Below are positions 42,589 through 50,116 of a stretch of 64,000 nt of DNA, in pieces. The translations under genes and the position numbers were made by a program. Position 1 is the stretch's first letter. Each line of letters starts with the position of its first letter. The notes under the pieces were generated by a model. That model was not told the origin of the DNA. It made no database searches and saw nothing but the letters and a program-made list of their open reading frames with translations. The stretch is from Candidatus Parepulonipiscium sp. PG-Nuni2H_MBin01 (GTDB lineage Bacteria > Bacillota > Clostridia > Lachnospirales > Cellulosilyticaceae): the NCBI GenBank assembly GCA_001994995.1, contig MDJM01000027.1:1-64000 (forward strand). The letters run 5' to 3'.

Positions 42589-42660
42589 AACTTTTTTTTG
42601 AATTTACCGTTTTTTATTGTAAAATCGGGTAGAATAACTTTTATAAAGGAGGCAGGGAAT

Positions 42661-43758
42661 ATGATATCTAATCAGATTGTTCAAAATACTATTGATGGAT
42701 TAAAAGCAATAACACGCCATGATTTTTGCGTTTTAGATGCTGAGGCAAAGGTTATAGCGACGACGGGTGAAAGTGTAGTTGGTGAGTATGTGGAGGAGGT
42801 TGAAGCGTTTATTAATTCACATGCTGACAGTCAGGAGATGCAAGGTTCTCATTATGTTAAAGTTTTTGATGAGTATTTAGTGGAGTATGTTATAGCTATT
42901 CGTGGTAATGATGATGATGCATATAAGTTAGGTAAGTTAGGGGCTTTCCAAATTAAGAGTTTGCTTGTTGCTTATAAGGAGAGGTTTGATAAGGATAATT
43001 TCATTAAGAATTTGTTGTTGGATAACCTGTTGTTAGTGGATATTTATAGCAGAGCTAAGAAGTTGCATATTGAAAATAGCGTTGCACGTGTTGTTTATCT
43101 AATTGAGAGCCAGAATATTAAAGATACTAACATTTCCGAGGTGCTGCGTAACCTTTTCCCAGATAAGACTAAGGATTTTGTTACTGCTGTTGATGAGAAG
43201 AGTATTATTTTGGTTAAGGAACTAGAGTCGAGGGAAGATGATGAGATAGAGAACTTTGCCAATGAGATTTATGATACGTTAAGCTCGGAGACTATGAGTC
43301 CAGTGTCGCTTGCTATTGGTACGGTAGTTACTGATTTAAAAGATGTGTCTAACTCGTTTAAAGAATCAGCGATGGCACTTGAGGTTGGGAAGATTTTCAA
43401 CCGTGAAGGTAATATTTCTACGTATTCTAAGCTCGGTGTAGGTAGGATTATTTATCAGTTGCCATTACCTCTTTGTAAAATGTTTATACAGGAGGTGCTT
43501 AAAGGTAAGCGTGTGAGCCATTTTGATGAGGAGACGCTTACTACAGTTAGTAAGTTTTTTGAAAACAGTTTAAATGTGTCTGAAACGTCGCGTCAGCTGT
43601 ATATTCATAGAAATACTTTAGTGTACCGCCTTGATAAGTTGTTAAAACAGACAGGACTTGATTTGCGAAAATTTGATGATGCCATTATTTTTAAAATTAC
43701 TATTATGGTTAGTCAATATATGGAATATATGGAAAAGCAGAACACATCTAGGATGTAA
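42661..43758 (+). CDS. CdaR/PucR-type transcriptional regulator
   Basis: A 365-residue cytoplasmic protein. The N-terminal part (about 1-120) fits the sugar-diacid recognition domain (ISNQIVQNTIDGLKAITRHDFCVLD), the middle resembles the CdaR GGDEF-like domain (PVSLAIGTVV..FKESAMALEVGK), and the C-terminus has the PucR helix-turn-helix (NVSETSRQLYIHRNTLVYRLDKL). The frame is open 21 codons further upstream, but AAAGGAGG lies just before the ATG at 42661. Targets cannot be read from sequence; being 30 bases upstream of ftsE suggests shared transcription rather than a sugar-acid pathway. Confidence 0.85.
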   Translation: MISNQIVQNTIDGLKAITRHDFCVLDAEAKVIATTGESVVGEYVEEVEAFINSHADSQEMQGSHYVKVFDEYLVEYVIAIRGNDDDAYKLGKLGAFQIKSLLVAYKERFDKDNFIKNLLLDNLLLVDIYSRAKKLHIENSVARVVYLIESQNIKDTNISEVLRNLFPDKTKDFVTAVDEKSIILVKELESREDDEIENFANEIYDTLSSETMSPVSLAIGTVVTDLKDVSNSFKESAMALEVGKIFNREGNISTYSKLGVGRIIYQLPLPLCKMFIQEVLKGKRVSHFDEETLTTVSKFFENSLNVSETSRQLYIHRNTLVYRLDKLLKQTGLDLRKFDDAIIFKITIMVSQYMEYMEKQNTSRM

Positions 43759-43787: not shown

Positions 43788-44519
43788 ATGATTGAATTAA
43801 CAGGTGTTTCTAAAATTTACTCTAACGGTGCAGTCGGACTGCACCCGACCTCCTTATATATTTCCAAAGGGGAGTTTGTATTTGTTACGGGAAATAGTGG
43901 GTCGGGTAAATCTACATTATTAAAGCTTATTTTAAAGGAAATTCCACCTTGTACAGGGCGTATAAGTATTAATAGTAGAGATATTACAACTTTGGTGGAG
44001 AGAAAAGTGCCATATCATAGACGGGATGTTGGGGTTGTGTTTCAAGATTTTAGGTTACTGCCTAATAAAACGGTATATGATAATATTGCTTTTGCCATGC
44101 AGGTGGTACAAGCACGTCCGAGAGAGATTAGACAGGCAGTGCCTGTTGCTCTAAATTTGGTTGGGTTAACGGAAAAGGCAAAGTGTTATCCGCATGAGTT
44201 ATCAGGGGGTGAACAGCAGCGTACAGCAATTGCGAGGGCGATTATTAATGATAGCCCTATATTAGTGGCGGATGAGCCTACTGGAAATTTGGACCCAGGA
44301 ACGGCACTTGGGATTATGAAGGTGCTGGAGGCTGTTAATTGTAAAGGGGTTACTGTGCTGGTGGCAACGCATGAGAGGGATATAGTAAATTCGTTTAAGA
44401 AGCGGGTTATTGAAATTAATTCAGGGCGTATTATAAAAGATGAGTTTGAAGGAGGGTATGGTAACCCTAGTTCGTATAATATTTTTAGTAAATCAAAACA
44501 AAGGAGGAATTTCATATGA
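43788..44519 (+). CDS. ftsE: Cell division ATP-binding protein FtsE
   Basis: The ATPase of the FtsEX complex, 243 residues. Walker A GNSGSGKST, Q-loop VVFQDFRLLPN, signature LSGGEQQRTAIAR and Walker B ILVADEPTGNLDP are intact. FtsEX transmits cytoplasmic ATP hydrolysis to a cell-wall hydrolase outside. Its stop codon overlaps the ftsX start (ATGA). Gram-positive FtsEX also acts in sporulation or elongation in some species. Confidence 0.94.
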   Translation: MIELTGVSKIYSNGAVGLHPTSLYISKGEFVFVTGNSGSGKSTLLKLILKEIPPCTGRISINSRDITTLVERKVPYHRRDVGVVFQDFRLLPNKTVYDNIAFAMQVVQARPREIRQAVPVALNLVGLTEKAKCYPHELSGGEQQRTAIARAIINDSPILVADEPTGNLDPGTALGIMKVLEAVNCKGVTVLVATHERDIVNSFKKRVIEINSGRIIKDEFEGGYGNPSSYNIFSKSKQRRNFI

Positions 44520-45403
44520 AGCCGTATACTATTAGTTACCTATTTTTGGAGGGACTGAAAGGGCTTTGGAAAAATAGAATGATGGCGATTGCATCAGTAG
44601 CAACTATTGTATTATCGCTGTCAGTTTTAGGTGTTTCATATTCAATTGCACAAAATTTTGATTATTTGATGAGACAACTGCAGGTGCAGATGGGGATTAC
44701 CGCTTACGTAAGTGAGTGGTATTCTGAAGATGATATAATTAGGTTGCAACAGAAGGTTAAAGACATTCCTAATGTGGAGGAGGTAGTGTATATATCAAAA
44801 GATGAGGCTTTGCAAATGTTTGCCGCGGATGATGCGAGTTTGTATGAAAATTTTAAAGATGATAATCCGCTGCCACCGTCGCTTGAGGTTATGGTATCGG
44901 ATATAGTTTATCAACAAACAATAGCAGATAGCTTAGCCGCAATTGATGGGTTAGAAGTGAGTTATTTTGAAGCAGAAACTAAGGTGTTTATTAAGCTAAA
45001 CAATTCGATACAAATTTTTTCATTTGTACTTATGGCTATACTGGCTATTATATCTTTACTACTTATAACTAACACGATTAAGCTAACACTATTTATTAGG
45101 AAGCGTGAAATAGAAATTATGAAACATATAGGAGCTACAGATTCATTTATAAGGGTTCCTTTTTTAGTTGAAGGATTAACTATTGGCATTATAGGAGCTA
45201 TAATCCCAAGTTTTATTATTTTCCACTCTTATATTTATGTTGATAATCAGGTCGCTACATTACTATCCACTATGTTTGGGGGAATTAGTTTAAAATCTGT
45301 AGAAGAGGTTATGTCTGGTTTAATACCAATTTACGCTATTTTAGCCATAGGTATTAGTGCTATTGGTAGTGCTATTGCTATTAGCAGACATTTAAATGTT
45401 TAG
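44516..45403 (+). CDS. ftsX: Cell division membrane protein FtsX
   Basis: A 295-residue permease-like subunit with four membrane segments (about 21-42, 165-190, 212-235 and 265-288) and a large outer loop after the first segment (about 50-160), the part that contacts the hydrolase. The N-terminal SYLFLEGLKGLWKNRMMAIASVATI is typical. GGAGG precedes the ATG inside the end of ftsE. The next gene, 10 bases on, encodes an M23 hydrolase, the expected partner. Confidence 0.93.
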   Translation: MKPYTISYLFLEGLKGLWKNRMMAIASVATIVLSLSVLGVSYSIAQNFDYLMRQLQVQMGITAYVSEWYSEDDIIRLQQKVKDIPNVEEVVYISKDEALQMFAADDASLYENFKDDNPLPPSLEVMVSDIVYQQTIADSLAAIDGLEVSYFEAETKVFIKLNNSIQIFSFVLMAILAIISLLLITNTIKLTLFIRKREIEIMKHIGATDSFIRVPFLVEGLTIGIIGAIIPSFIIFHSYIYVDNQVATLLSTMFGGISLKSVEEVMSGLIPIYAILAIGISAIGSAIAISRHLNV

Positions 45404-45412
45404 GGTGAGAAA

Positions 45413-46777
45413 ATGAAGCATATACTTAATATAGTTCTTATACCATCTTTGATAGCTTACAACGTATATGCAGCTACTTCACTTGACAGTAATGCTATAC
45501 TTAATAGTGATACTACACTTGCTCGAGCTATTGATTATGATATGATTATAAAAGAGCAGATGGAAGCCACGCAAGAGGTTGAAAATCAGATTAAGTCGGA
45601 GATAGATGGTATTGAACAAGAATTAGAGACAAATAAGGAAGCTATTGCAGAAGCTACGCAAGAGTTAAATCAGAATTTACAACAGCAGAGTCAGACTAGG
45701 GAAGATGTGGAGTTACTAGACTTGGCTGTTATTGAAGTTGAGAATGAGATATTACAAATTGAGCAAGACTTGGAAGTGACTAAACAGCAAATTGAGTTAA
45801 CTGCGGATGAACTTGTGGCGGCGAAGGTGAGTTTGGATAATCATTACGAAGAGACAAAAGAGCGAATGGTTACTATGTATAAAAATAATCGTAGAAGGTT
45901 TATAGAAATATTATTTTCATCGGATACGTTAACGCAGTTATTAAGTAGATCTATTTATATTTCAAGAATAGCAGATTATGATGACAAGTTAATGAGAGAT
46001 TTTGCAACACAACATGAGCTTGTTATTGCTAAACAACAGCAATTTGATTTAGAATATATGCAAATTGGATTATTGCATGAAAAAGCGGTAGTTAAAAAAG
46101 AAGAACTTATTAGCTTGATGGAGCATAAGGTTGAGCAGATATTAGAGTTAGAAAATGCGCATGAGGTAGTTGCTGGGCAAATTAGTGCACTTGAGTTAGC
46201 AGGAGCGGAGTTAGAGGAACAGATTTCTGCTATGATATTAGAGTTAACTAAGCTTAGTGAGGTGCAAGAGGAGCTACAAAATGCGGCTGAGGATGAGAAT
46301 GCAGCAAGGATAGCAGCACAAGCTGCTTTAGCAACAGCGGCAGCAGCAGAAGCGGCAGCATTAGGATATACTTCAAGTTCTAGCAATATATTTAGCTGGC
46401 CAGTGCCGGGGCAATATTATATAAGCTCCCAATATAACTCTAGAAGCAATCCAATTTCGGGGCTAACGGAATTCCACCAAGGTATAGATATACCAGCGCC
46501 ATACGGTACAACTGTGGTGGCGGCAGCTGCGGGTAAGGTTATTACAGCAGGATGGGTTAATGGGTATGGATATACAGTAATGATAGACCATGGTAGCGGA
46601 CTTGTAACTTTATACGCACATAATTCATCATTAAATGTAAGTGTAGGTCAGTTAGTTGCACAAGGACAAAATATTGCTGGAGTTGGTAGCACAGGCTATT
46701 CAACAGGTAACCATTGTCACTTTGAAGTTAGATTAAATGGAGAGCATACTAATCCTTGGTATTTTTTAGAAGATTAA
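45413..46777 (+). CDS. EnvC-like coiled-coil M23 peptidase
   Basis: A 454-residue secreted protein. The signal peptide ends near YNVYA, followed by two long coiled coils (about 45-130 and 185-275), an Ala-rich stretch and a LytM/M23 domain (345-450). Zinc ligands are retained: His and Asp in FHQGIDIP and the HxH in NHCHFEVRL, so it should be an active endopeptidase, unlike E. coli EnvC, which lost activity and acts through amidases. Its position after ftsEX makes it the likely FtsX-controlled wall hydrolase, like PcsB or CwlO in other Firmicutes. Confidence 0.9.
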   Translation: MKHILNIVLIPSLIAYNVYAATSLDSNAILNSDTTLARAIDYDMIIKEQMEATQEVENQIKSEIDGIEQELETNKEAIAEATQELNQNLQQQSQTREDVELLDLAVIEVENEILQIEQDLEVTKQQIELTADELVAAKVSLDNHYEETKERMVTMYKNNRRRFIEILFSSDTLTQLLSRSIYISRIADYDDKLMRDFATQHELVIAKQQQFDLEYMQIGLLHEKAVVKKEELISLMEHKVEQILELENAHEVVAGQISALELAGAELEEQISAMILELTKLSEVQEELQNAAEDENAARIAAQAALATAAAAEAAALGYTSSSSNIFSWPVPGQYYISSQYNSRSNPISGLTEFHQGIDIPAPYGTTVVAAAAGKVITAGWVNGYGYTVMIDHGSGLVTLYAHNSSLNVSVGQLVAQGQNIAGVGSTGYSTGNHCHFEVRLNGEHTNPWYFLED

Positions 46778-46782
46778 AAAGT

Positions 46783-46809
46783 AGGCATTGTAAGACAGTG
46801 CCTTTTCTT
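46783..46809 (+). terminator. Terminator after the M23 gene
   Basis: AGGCATTGT-aag-ACAGTGCCT (one T-G pair) followed by a T-rich tail. It may only partly stop transcription into the next genes. Confidence 0.7.
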
Positions 46810-46827: not shown

Positions 46828-48000
46828 ATGGTTAGAGAAATGATACCTAGACTATTAGGGCTAATGACAGGAATTGTATTGGCAGTTATACTAATACTCG
46901 TGTATTTATTAACACCACAATTGGGACTTGCAACGGTGGAGGTATATGATAGAAATAAGTTAATAATCTTAGACCAAGTTGTTGGTTATCAGTATTTTAA
47001 ACAGTCAGATTATGAGGATAGAGTTGAGGGGTTGTATTCTGGTTACGTTTCGGGGCTTGAGGATTCTACAACTATGTATTTTACAGCTGAGGAAGCGGCT
47101 AAATGGCTTGCGGAGGATAAAGGGAAATACGTTGGTACAGGAATTAAATTTACGTGGGGAATTACTAATCAGTATTTAGTGGTGACAGAGGTATTAAATA
47201 ACTCGCCTGCAGAAGCTGCTGGTATACAAGTTGGTGATAGGATTACAGCCATAGATGGAGTTTTTGCTATGATGAGTAATGAACTTGATATATACGAAAA
47301 GCTAACTTCAACATCTGATGCAGTATATACAGTTATCAAAGATGGTATTGAGACTGATATTGCGCTATTTTCAGCGGAAATTGAAACTGATGCTGTTAAT
47401 AGTATGTTATTGCAAAATAATATTGGTTATTTAGAGCTGGCATCTTTAAATGAAGGAGCTGTTGAGGAGATTTACTCTCATATAGATAACTTGGAAACTC
47501 AAGGAGCTAATAAGTGGATTATTGATATGAGATATTTAAGCAATGCAGACTTTCAAGAAACTATACTATTAACAGATTTGTTAACAGATGCAGGTCCTAT
47601 GTTTTTATCTGTAGATAAGGAAGGGGAAACGACTGAATATAACTCAGTGAACGAAAAAATTAATGGGCAGGTAGTAATTCTTACGAATGCTAGTACTAGC
47701 GGAAATGTGGAGGCAGTGATTGCAACGGTTAAGGATGATGAAAGTATAACTACAATTGGAACAAACACTAAAGGGAATGCAAAAGTGCAAGAATTTATAC
47801 AACTTAGTGATGGTAGTGGCTTGTTAATTGCAACAGAAAATCTATACACAACTGACGAAAGAGAAATTGGTAGCGAACCTATGGAGCCAGAAATTCTTGT
47901 AGAATTAGACGTTGCGTATACGCTTAAACTAGTAACAGAAGGTGTATCTGATAAAGAGCTTGACAACCAGCTTATAGCAGCAATAGAGCATTTAAGCTAA
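46828..48000 (+). CDS. S41 (CtpA-like) homologue, predicted pseudoprotease
   Basis: 390 residues: N-terminal membrane anchor (about 10-30), a helical cap region, a PDZ domain (about 105-180: NNSPAEAAGIQVGDRITAIDG) and an S41-type core. An ungapped match to its neighbour over VILTNASTSGNVEAVIATVK shows Gly292 where the catalytic Ser belongs and Asn317 where the catalytic Lys belongs; Ser291 and Lys315 are nearby but out of register. I infer loss of proteolysis with retained peptide-binding PDZ. It arose probably by tandem duplication with the next gene, from which it is separated by 93 bases. GGAGG precedes the ATG. Confidence 0.8.
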   Translation: MVREMIPRLLGLMTGIVLAVILILVYLLTPQLGLATVEVYDRNKLIILDQVVGYQYFKQSDYEDRVEGLYSGYVSGLEDSTTMYFTAEEAAKWLAEDKGKYVGTGIKFTWGITNQYLVVTEVLNNSPAEAAGIQVGDRITAIDGVFAMMSNELDIYEKLTSTSDAVYTVIKDGIETDIALFSAEIETDAVNSMLLQNNIGYLELASLNEGAVEEIYSHIDNLETQGANKWIIDMRYLSNADFQETILLTDLLTDAGPMFLSVDKEGETTEYNSVNEKINGQVVILTNASTSGNVEAVIATVKDDESITTIGTNTKGNAKVQEFIQLSDGSGLLIATENLYTTDEREIGSEPMEPEILVELDVAYTLKLVTEGVSDKELDNQLIAAIEHLS

Positions 48001-48093
48001 CAATTTAGGGATAATCATGTTTTGGACAACGTATAATAATATAGGCTGTTGAATGCTTAGGCAGCCTGAGGTAGAGATAGGAGAATTTATAAG

Positions 48094-49263
48094 ATGAAAA
48101 AGTTTTGTTCATATATGGCAGTAAGCTTTTTATTAAGCATATGTTTTATGGGCTGGACAGTTAAGTCAATGGAAAGCTCAAGTGGCATTGATGAGATTAA
48201 TGACAAATTGTCTATGCTTAGGGACACAATAGATGAATATTATATCGGCGAAATTGATGATGGCAAGTTAGAAGAAGGGATTTACAGAGGATTTGTTGCT
48301 GGAGTAGGAGACCCTTATACTAGTTATTATACACCAAAAGAGTTTGCGGATTTTATGGAAAGCGCAAGTGGAGTGTATGCAGGGATTGGGGTACAAATGA
48401 CTATTGATAAAACGGATAACTCAATTTCTATAGTGGAAGTATTCCCAGGTTCGCCGGCAGAAATTTCGGGTTTGCTTCCTAAAGATAAGATTATAGGTGC
48501 GGATGGGACAACTTTAAATGGCGATGATTTTAGTTTAGCGCCAGAATTGATTAAAGGACCAGAGGGGACAGATGTGGTTGTTACTATATATAGACCTTCT
48601 GAGGAGACGACTTATGATTTTGTTATTACTAGACAAAACGTAATTTATCCGTCAGTGGAATATGAAATGATGGATAATAACATTGGCTATATGGAGCTTA
48701 GAAGTTTTGAGGAGTTAACGTATAGTCAGCTGGTGGAAGGTATTGAGATTCTTGAGTCACAAGGTGCAAAAGGGCTTATTATAGATTTACGAAATAATCC
48801 AGGGGGGCTTTTGCACATTACAGAGCAAATTGTGGATGAGTTTATCCCAGATGGAATTATAGTTTCAACGAAAGATAATTCTAAAGAAATCGTTGATTCT
48901 ATGGCTAGCAGTGATTATAATGATATACCTTTAGTAATACTTGTAAATGAGCAAAGTGCTAGTGCTTCTGAGGTTTTATCGGGTGCTTTAAAAGACCATG
49001 GAAGAGCTAAGTTGGTTGGAACTAGAACGTTTGGTAAAGGAATAGTGCAAAGCATATTACCAATGGTAGATGGTTCGGCGATTAAGGTTACTACTTCTGA
49101 GTACTACACACCGTCAGGAATTTGTATTCAAGGTACAGGGATAGAGCCAGATTATTTGGTAGAGCTGCCAGCGGAGCTTATGATACTCCCTAATTTAACG
49201 TTTGAAGAAGATTTACAATTACAAAAAGCCGTTGAAGTTTTGATTGAAGAAATTGGGTTATAA
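48094..49263 (+). CDS. Carboxy-terminal processing protease CtpA (S41)
   Basis: A 389-residue membrane-anchored S41 protease. A hydrophobic N-terminus is followed by a PDZ domain (FPGSPAEISGLLPKDKIIGADG) and the protease core, with the catalytic Ser290 in NEQSASASEV and Lys315 in RTFGKGIVQS, spaced 25 residues apart as in E. coli Prc. The substrate-gate segment DLRNNPGGLL is present. Such enzymes trim exported proteins and cell-wall hydrolases and act in sporulation signalling; here the M23 protein is a plausible substrate. Confidence 0.93.
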   Translation: MKKFCSYMAVSFLLSICFMGWTVKSMESSSGIDEINDKLSMLRDTIDEYYIGEIDDGKLEEGIYRGFVAGVGDPYTSYYTPKEFADFMESASGVYAGIGVQMTIDKTDNSISIVEVFPGSPAEISGLLPKDKIIGADGTTLNGDDFSLAPELIKGPEGTDVVVTIYRPSEETTYDFVITRQNVIYPSVEYEMMDNNIGYMELRSFEELTYSQLVEGIEILESQGAKGLIIDLRNNPGGLLHITEQIVDEFIPDGIIVSTKDNSKEIVDSMASSDYNDIPLVILVNEQSASASEVLSGALKDHGRAKLVGTRTFGKGIVQSILPMVDGSAIKVTTSEYYTPSGICIQGTGIEPDYLVELPAELMILPNLTFEEDLQLQKAVEVLIEEIGL

Positions 49264-49266
49264 TCT

Positions 49267-49288
49267 AAGGGATTGCTTGCAATCCCTT
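49267..49288 (+). terminator. Hairpin after ctpA
   Basis: A 22-base palindrome, AAGGGATTGC-tt-GCAATCCCTT, followed by a modest T stretch; probably a partial terminator before the next gene. Confidence 0.6.
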
Positions 49289-49312
49289 ATTTGTTCTGAT
49301 AGGAGGGATTTT

Positions 49313-50116
49313 ATGTTTAAAGAATTAATAACGACCATTTTTAATAACGTTTACTATGTAGTTTTTGATTCTGTATTTTTAATTATAGCTATACTCGTTG
49401 TATTTATGTACAGAAAAGAAAATCCTAAGTGGGAGCTGACGGGAATTAAAGATGTTTTACGTGGTACAACTTTAGGGATTATTTTAAGCACTATCATGTC
49501 TATGTGTGGGATAAGCATACAATTAACGTTTGGAATGATGTTTCTTATTCCGCTTACTGTATTGCTAACAAGCTTTAATCCAAAATGGGGTTGTTATGCT
49601 TACGTTATACCTTTTACATATGCTGTTACAGCAATAGTAGAAATTTGCGGCTATAACTTGCCTTGGCTCTATTTGCCATATAAAGAGTTTATATTCCTAG
49701 TCGGTTTTTTACATTTAATAGAAGGTATATTGGTTATGCTATACGGTAGCGAAAACACTTTTGAAGTGCCTGTTTATGATGGGCGAACGATTATAACAGG
49801 GCATTCTATGAAGAAGTTTTGGCCTGTGCCGCTTGTTATATTTACAAATGGTATGACTATAATTCCGCTGTATGCTATTTTGGGCTATATTGATATTGCA
49901 AAAAACTATTCGCCACAAGTTAAATCTGCTAAGATGGGCGCTATAATTTTGATATATGGAATATTTATATTAATATTAGCTACATTAGTAAACGTAGGTA
50001 TTTTAACAATAGGACTAGCTTTAATAATAATGCCTATTGGTCATGAGCTAATGTTTTTAATAAACTATATGCCAGCGACGCAAATGAGTAGGCGTAATCC
50101 AAGTTGGAGAAACTAG
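49313..50116 (+). CDS. Polytopic membrane protein (MinJ-like membrane domain?)
   Basis: 267 residues with about seven hydrophobic segments and no soluble domain. In many Firmicutes the gene after ctpA encodes a MinJ-like protein, a membrane domain ending in G-H-E-L followed by a PDZ domain. Here the last segment ends in MPIGHELMFLINYMP and the protein stops about 20 residues later, so only a membrane half would be present. The frame runs on upstream into ctpA, but AGGAGG sits 7 bases before the ATG at 49313. The MinJ link rests on position and the GHEL motif only. Confidence 0.55.
   Translation: MFKELITTIFNNVYYVVFDSVFLIIAILVVFMYRKENPKWELTGIKDVLRGTTLGIILSTIMSMCGISIQLTFGMMFLIPLTVLLTSFNPKWGCYAYVIPFTYAVTAIVEICGYNLPWLYLPYKEFIFLVGFLHLIEGILVMLYGSENTFEVPVYDGRTIITGHSMKKFWPVPLVIFTNGMTIIPLYAILGYIDIAKNYSPQVKSAKMGAIILIYGIFILILATLVNVGILTIGLALIIMPIGHELMFLINYMPATQMSRRNPSWRN

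Follow-up and report, generated by a model that had tools for sequence, protein, structure and literature searches.

A conserved S41 pseudoprotease gene beside ctpA in the ftsEX-M23 cluster of the family of Epulonipiscium and Cellulosilyticum

In S41 peptidases the oxyanion hole is formed by the NPGG loop, and an S41-type fold without protease function is known from IRBP, an animal retinoid carrier. The regulators of C-terminal processing proteases (CTPs) that we found described, NlpI and LbcA, are Gram-negative and unrelated to the protease. Dead S41 folds (IRBP) and CTP adaptors (NlpI, LbcA) are known, but we came across no description of a dead paralogue that is paired with its active CtpA; likewise, searches of the open literature returned no S41 pseudoprotease from bacteria. 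In B. subtilis CtpB, whose structure has been solved, the catalytic residues are Ser309, Lys334 and Gln338 (PMC3808539). CTPs form dimers or hexamers via N- and C-terminal helices and are PDZ-gated (PMC3808539, PMC8764530), the CtpA of P. aeruginosa needs a partner for activity (PMC8764530), and the CtpA of H. pylori is an asymmetric hexamer, which shows that the subunits of a working CTP oligomer need not be equal (PMC12749690). In the passages found of the paper on the Epulopiscium genome, homologues of ctpB are mentioned and a dead copy is not (PMC3416734).

The window analysed here is a stretch of 64,000 nucleotides from Candidatus Parepulonipiscium sp. PG-Nuni2H_MBin01 (contig MDJM01000027.1), and it falls within the family of Epulonipiscium and Cellulosilyticum. 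At 46828-49263, two same-strand S41/PDZ genes lie downstream of ftsE, ftsX and a PcsB/EnvC-like M23 gene, whose product is a putative FtsX-controlled wall hydrolase (Table 1). As a first-pass annotation of the window had noticed, the two genes are adjacent and of equal length (390 and 389 aa). Both carry the Pfam domains Peptidase_S41 and PDZ. They are the only S41 matches in the window's own genome.

Table 1. Features of the cluster in the window. Positions are nucleotides, except in the row on protein layout.
Feature	Position	Strand	Evidence and remarks
PucR/CdaR-like regulator	42598..43758	+	PF13556 HTH_30; conserved first gene of the cluster, position kept in relatives
ftsE, ATPase of FtsEX	43788..44519	+	TIGR02673 FtsE, 268.7 bits, exceeds cut-off
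ftsX	44516..45403	+	NF038347 FtsX_Gpos, 233 bits, exceeds cut-off; PF18075 FtsX_ECD
Secreted PcsB/EnvC-like coiled-coil + M23 peptidase	45413..46777	+	PF01551, 118 bits; PF24568 CC_PcsB, 27.7 bits
Terminator-like hairpin, M23/pseudoprotease intergenic	46783..46803	+	Relatives without it
S41/PDZ pseudoprotease, 390 aa	46828..48000	+	PF03572, 75.5 bits; PDZ, 35-37 bits
Layout of the pseudoprotease (residues)	TM helix 5-31; N-terminal helices 42-97; PDZ 100-186; dead S41 ~190-360; C-terminal helix 380-389		
ctpA, intact S41 C-terminal processing protease, 389 aa	48094..49263	+	TIGR00225 prc, 300 bits; Pfam S41, 178 bits
Terminator-like hairpin 3' of ctpA	49266..49289	+	Relatives without it
MinJ-like polytopic membrane protein, no PDZ	49313..50116	+	Conserved last gene of the cluster; homologue 3' of ctpA in family f1 and several sister-family genomes

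The two hairpins flank the pair in the window's genome only, where the pair may be separately transcribed; a family-wide transcription unit bounded by terminators was rejected on the same ground. The last gene of the cluster is presumably MinJ-like, a name given from its position and architecture. As seen from the window and the loci L057, L063, L065 and L048, this protein is about 425 aa long and ends in a C-terminal PDZ domain in some sister families; in several Cellulosilyticum-type genomes the domain has degenerated, and most of the family's other genomes lack it, as does the window. A role of the pseudoprotease PDZ as substitute for the one lost from the MinJ-like protein was rejected, since the two PDZ domains occur together in several Cellulosilyticum-type genomes and are both missing from some sister families.

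The catalytic site was compared by a global alignment of both proteins (99 identities in 396 columns), which placed Ser290, Lys315 and Gln319 of CtpA opposite Gly292, Asn317 and Gln321 of the first protein. The same three CtpA residues aligned to Ser309, Lys334 and Gln338 of CtpB. The first-pass view that Gly292 and Asn317 occupy the positions of Ser290 and Lys315, which are 25 residues apart, was therefore confirmed by both alignments. Furthermore, the NNPGG motif of CtpA is destroyed in the first protein, where it reads YLSNA and Gly-Gly is replaced by Asn239-Ala240. With the prc model (TIGR00225 of NCBIfam, curated cut-off 218.6 bits), the first protein scored 122 bits, below the cut-off, and the neighbouring CtpA scored above it. 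The loss extends over the family. Homologues of the first gene in which Ser and Lys are both intact, an outcome named at the outset as evidence against a pseudoprotease, were sought in 20 first copies and none was found (Ser-Lys pair 0/20); Gly stands at the Ser position in 19 of them, and the oxyanion Gly-Gly is missing in all. The third catalytic residue, Gln, is present in the window's protein as Gln321, but only 5/20 homologues keep it. In the sole copy whose catalytic position is still Ser (G019, locus L049, 8279-9418), the Lys position is taken by Glu. Ser, Lys, Gln and Gly-Gly are all kept in 21/21 second copies and in 18/18 single copies of sister families. Since every first copy has lost the dyad while all second and single copies are intact, chance or sequencing error was excluded. 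The gene at 46828-48000 thus encodes, as the first-pass annotation had it, a true pseudoprotease beside an active CtpA; this protein is conserved, shares ancestry with the active enzymes, has a fold predicted to be intact, and has lost its catalytic residues clade-wide.

The suggested survey of the pair found the dead copy in 20 of the 24 genomes of the family, with the dyad lost each time. Three of the other genomes are incomplete (73-83%) and have no S41 match at all; the fourth, G006 (94% complete), carries ctpA directly 3' of the M23 gene and is the only family genome with CtpA and no dead copy. In a tree of PucR, FtsE and FtsX, G006 branches off as sister to the rest of the family (99*). 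When 196 genomes of the order were searched with a profile of the pseudoprotease, the first copies of the family scored at least 327 bits and everything else at most 262 bits, and no dead copy was found among the approximately 175 genomes sampled from other families. Of the named CtpA loci, 77 lie outside the family; no second S41 gene was found near ctpA at any of them, and many have the plain order ftsE-ftsX-M23-ctpA. Because G006 branches first and the gene is absent outside the family, a single gain between M23 and ctpA after the split of G006 was concluded. No loss after the gain was seen, and the gene is kept in 20/20 post-gain genomes in which the S41 locus is assembled. In the S41 tree all pseudoprotease copies form one clade (100/100), the branching of which parallels that of CtpA; a duplication within the family agrees with this tree, on a branch that is unsupported (37/50). 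Most likely, ctpA was duplicated once in tandem in the ancestor of the Epulonipiscium/Cellulosilyticum family; the capture of a distant S41 gene is a less likely alternative.

We are inclined to regard the pseudoprotease as a partner that is dedicated to CtpA and non-catalytic, acting as a pseudo-subunit or as a PDZ adaptor or decoy, with a slight preference for the former. A tandem duplicate of ctpA would have lost catalysis and then been retained in this role. The protein would be anchored in the membrane by its N-terminal helix, with the PDZ and the dead protease domain outside, would join CtpA via the retained N- and C-terminal dimerisation helices, and would bind protein C-termini through its own PDZ. 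It would thereby set which envelope proteins reach the active site of CtpA, and when. The candidate substrates are the MinJ-like protein and the M23 hydrolase; the latter is considered because its adjacency to ctpA is ancient and because wall hydrolases are degraded by CtpA/Prc enzymes in other systems (PMC8764530, PMC10671308). That the M23 protein carries a conserved degron at its C-terminus was rejected, since this end of the protein looks much the same whether or not a genome has the pseudoprotease gene. A mixed oligomer of pseudo-subunit and CtpA is proposed only tentatively. That the dead paralogue is an obligate subunit, so that the CtpA of this family is a mixed oligomer with a second, differently tuned PDZ and with the asymmetry of the ring fixed, is a still more speculative and rather unlikely extension. 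If true, the obligate pseudo-subunit would add a layer of control over the turnover of wall hydrolases, gained in the lineage from which giant cells with internal offspring later arose.

The choice of CtpA as the partner is based on linkage and co-variation. The pseudoprotease gene and ctpA are directly adjacent in 18 genomes, with an intergenic gap of 15-126 bp, and lie at contig ends in one further genome. In three E. viviparus-type genomes (G007, G011 and G017), ftsEX-M23 is separated from the still-joined pair: in the complete genome G007, ftsX-M23 is located at 2.38 Mb and the cluster of pseudoprotease gene, ctpA and MinJ-like gene at 2.54 Mb, about 157 kb apart, and in the other two they are on different contigs. 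Since the pair stays joined where ftsEX-M23 moved away, CtpA is the likelier partner. Moreover, the M23-ctpA adjacency is ancestral and widespread in Clostridia, which, together with the distance in the E. viviparus type, ties the pseudoprotease primarily to CtpA and not to M23. The co-variation of pseudoprotease distances, corrected by PucR/FtsE, was highest with CtpA (0.89), followed by FtsX (0.70) and M23 (0.53), values that saturation can inflate. Linkage and co-variation together favour CtpA as the functional partner, and from them we infer an interaction. Residues D379, L382 and A385 of the C-terminal helix are conserved in both paralogues.

Several observations were counted against the preferred reading. 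In Epulopiscium Nele67-Bin005, the pseudoprotease gene and ctpA are found on separate contigs, and the genes around them are unrelated; among the pseudoprotease copies, conservation of the N-terminal dimerisation region is only 34%; the bulky Phe108 of the PDZ, described below, may affect binding; and Arg168, the peptide sensor of CtpB, corresponds to Thr160 in the pseudoprotease and to Lys154 in CtpA. An earlier assignment of R167 as the counterpart of this sensor was wrong, since Arg168 aligns to Lys154. Likewise counted against it, an AlphaFold chain reading through both genes did not place the two halves confidently relative to each other (pTM 0.48), with only two sequences available for the pseudoprotease half.

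Several rearrangements were seen at these loci. In Nele67-Bin005, the pseudoprotease gene (L035, 395-1660) is beside a mutS2-like gene and ctpA (L036, 7010-8203) is beside sugar-utilisation genes, and both are intact. In the E. viviparus type (L208 in G007, L209 in G011, and L038), a rearrangement split the PucR-ftsE-ftsX-M23 block from the ctpA block, and G011 has an enlarged M23 protein of about 680 aa. In G003, a REP-type/IS200-like transposase gene (assigned by eye; L042, 8117-9010, minus strand) lies between M23 and the pseudoprotease gene, with the pair intact.

The AlphaFold model of the pseudoprotease (49-row alignment; pLDDT 91.8, pTM 0.82) has complete PDZ and S41 domains, and the helix at its N-terminus is membrane-spanning by hydrophobicity. 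The best solved match was active-state CtpB (4c2f/4c2c, Z 32, rmsd 3.5-3.6), compared with Z 22 and rmsd 7.1 for resting CtpB (4c2e); because AlphaFold may be biased towards the active state, the closer fit to it is no more than suggestive. The next match was P. aeruginosa CtpA bound to LbcA (Z 30-32).

A stand-alone PDZ adaptor or decoy, which like NlpI and LbcA would stay outside the CtpA oligomer, bind the C-termini of CtpA substrates and hand them over or shield them, is the strongest rival, though we consider it unlikely on balance. Within the pseudoprotease clade, conservation is highest in the PDZ (40%, vs 35% for the S41 domain), and in CtpA the order is reversed (56% for the PDZ and 68% for the protease domain). 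The Gly-x-Gly carboxylate-binding loop is kept (Gly103 and Gly105, the latter in 20/20), so the PDZ-based role that the first-pass annotation suggested for the first protein gains indirect support. The residues fixed specifically in the pseudoprotease include Phe259, Thr290 and Gly292 of the former Ser loop, and Trp110, whose invariance beside the groove strand of the PDZ points to a conserved ligand. In addition, CTP adaptors control wall hydrolases (PMC8764530, PMC5686067). However, the whole dead S41 domain and the C-terminal helix are kept and predicted to be well folded, beyond the needs of an adaptor, and the adaptors known so far belong to the TPR lipoproteins and are no paralogues of S41 enzymes. 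The groove itself may be narrowed by Phe108, which occupies the position of CtpB Val118; since Val118Tyr blocks peptide binding in CtpB (PMC3808539), the bulky residue may alter or abolish binding by the pseudoprotease PDZ.

It is improbable that the protein has left the protease pathway, its S41 fold being reused to bind wall, lipid or a small ligand as in IRBP and its position beside ctpA being a relic of the duplication. The IRBP modules, which are non-proteases with this fold, match the model at Z 15-18, the dN/dS of the gene is about twice that of ctpA (0.12-0.19 vs 0.04-0.09 in the least saturated informative pairs), and the pair is unlinked in Nele67-Bin005. Nevertheless, across the family the gene remained linked to ctpA as ftsEX-M23 moved off, and the strongest distance co-variation is that with CtpA.

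The protein is most improbably still an enzyme with a shifted dyad, such as Ser291 with Lys315 or Lys319. The window's sequence does have Ser and Lys one or two positions off, and a working dyad of Ser291 and Lys315 had been named as a result that would speak against the first-pass reading; judged by conservation, which stood in for geometry, this dyad was rejected, because the positions vary freely among the homologues, Thr290 and Gly292 are conserved instead, and the oxyanion Gly-Gly is gone. A decaying pseudogene on its way to loss is scarcely credible: the gene evolves faster than ctpA, but it is under purifying selection with dN/dS well below 1, the ORF is intact in every complete copy, no frameshifted or lost copy was seen across the family, the gene is retained in all post-gain genomes with the locus assembled, and a ribosome-binding site precedes it in the window.

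With the pseudoprotease as CtpA's dedicated partner, duplication and catalytic loss seem to have made a CTP regulator here, in a cell-division gene cluster of the family of Epulonipiscium. The pair offers a testable system for a pseudoprotease capturing its active paralogue, and a lead on the control of CtpA in Clostridia, where the order ftsEX-M23-ctpA is common. Annotation by profiles would probably label the pseudoprotease an S41 peptidase, which is misleading.

Compared with CtpA, CtpB and Prc (MEROPS S41), the pseudoprotease resembles especially B. subtilis CtpB in its fold, domain order, N-terminal membrane segment, PDZ carboxylate loop and C-terminal helix, and differs in that every copy is without the Ser-Lys pair and the oxyanion motif, that most have lost the Gln, and that it stays far from the prc cut-off. 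With IRBP it shares an S41-type fold and, as judged from its sequence, the absence of protease function; IRBP, however, is an animal protein and is not paired with an active protease. The asymmetry of H. pylori CtpA is conformational and arises in one gene product, whereas a pseudo-subunit would make the unequal arrangement permanent. Like NlpI with Prc and LbcA with CtpA, the pseudoprotease is a non-catalytic envelope protein that is expected to control a CTP and that lies near wall-hydrolase functions. Unlike NlpI and LbcA, TPR lipoproteins unrelated to the protease, it is an S41/PDZ protein with a transmembrane helix, in which a domain search gave no TPR match, and the candidate regulator would be the protease's own dead paralogue.
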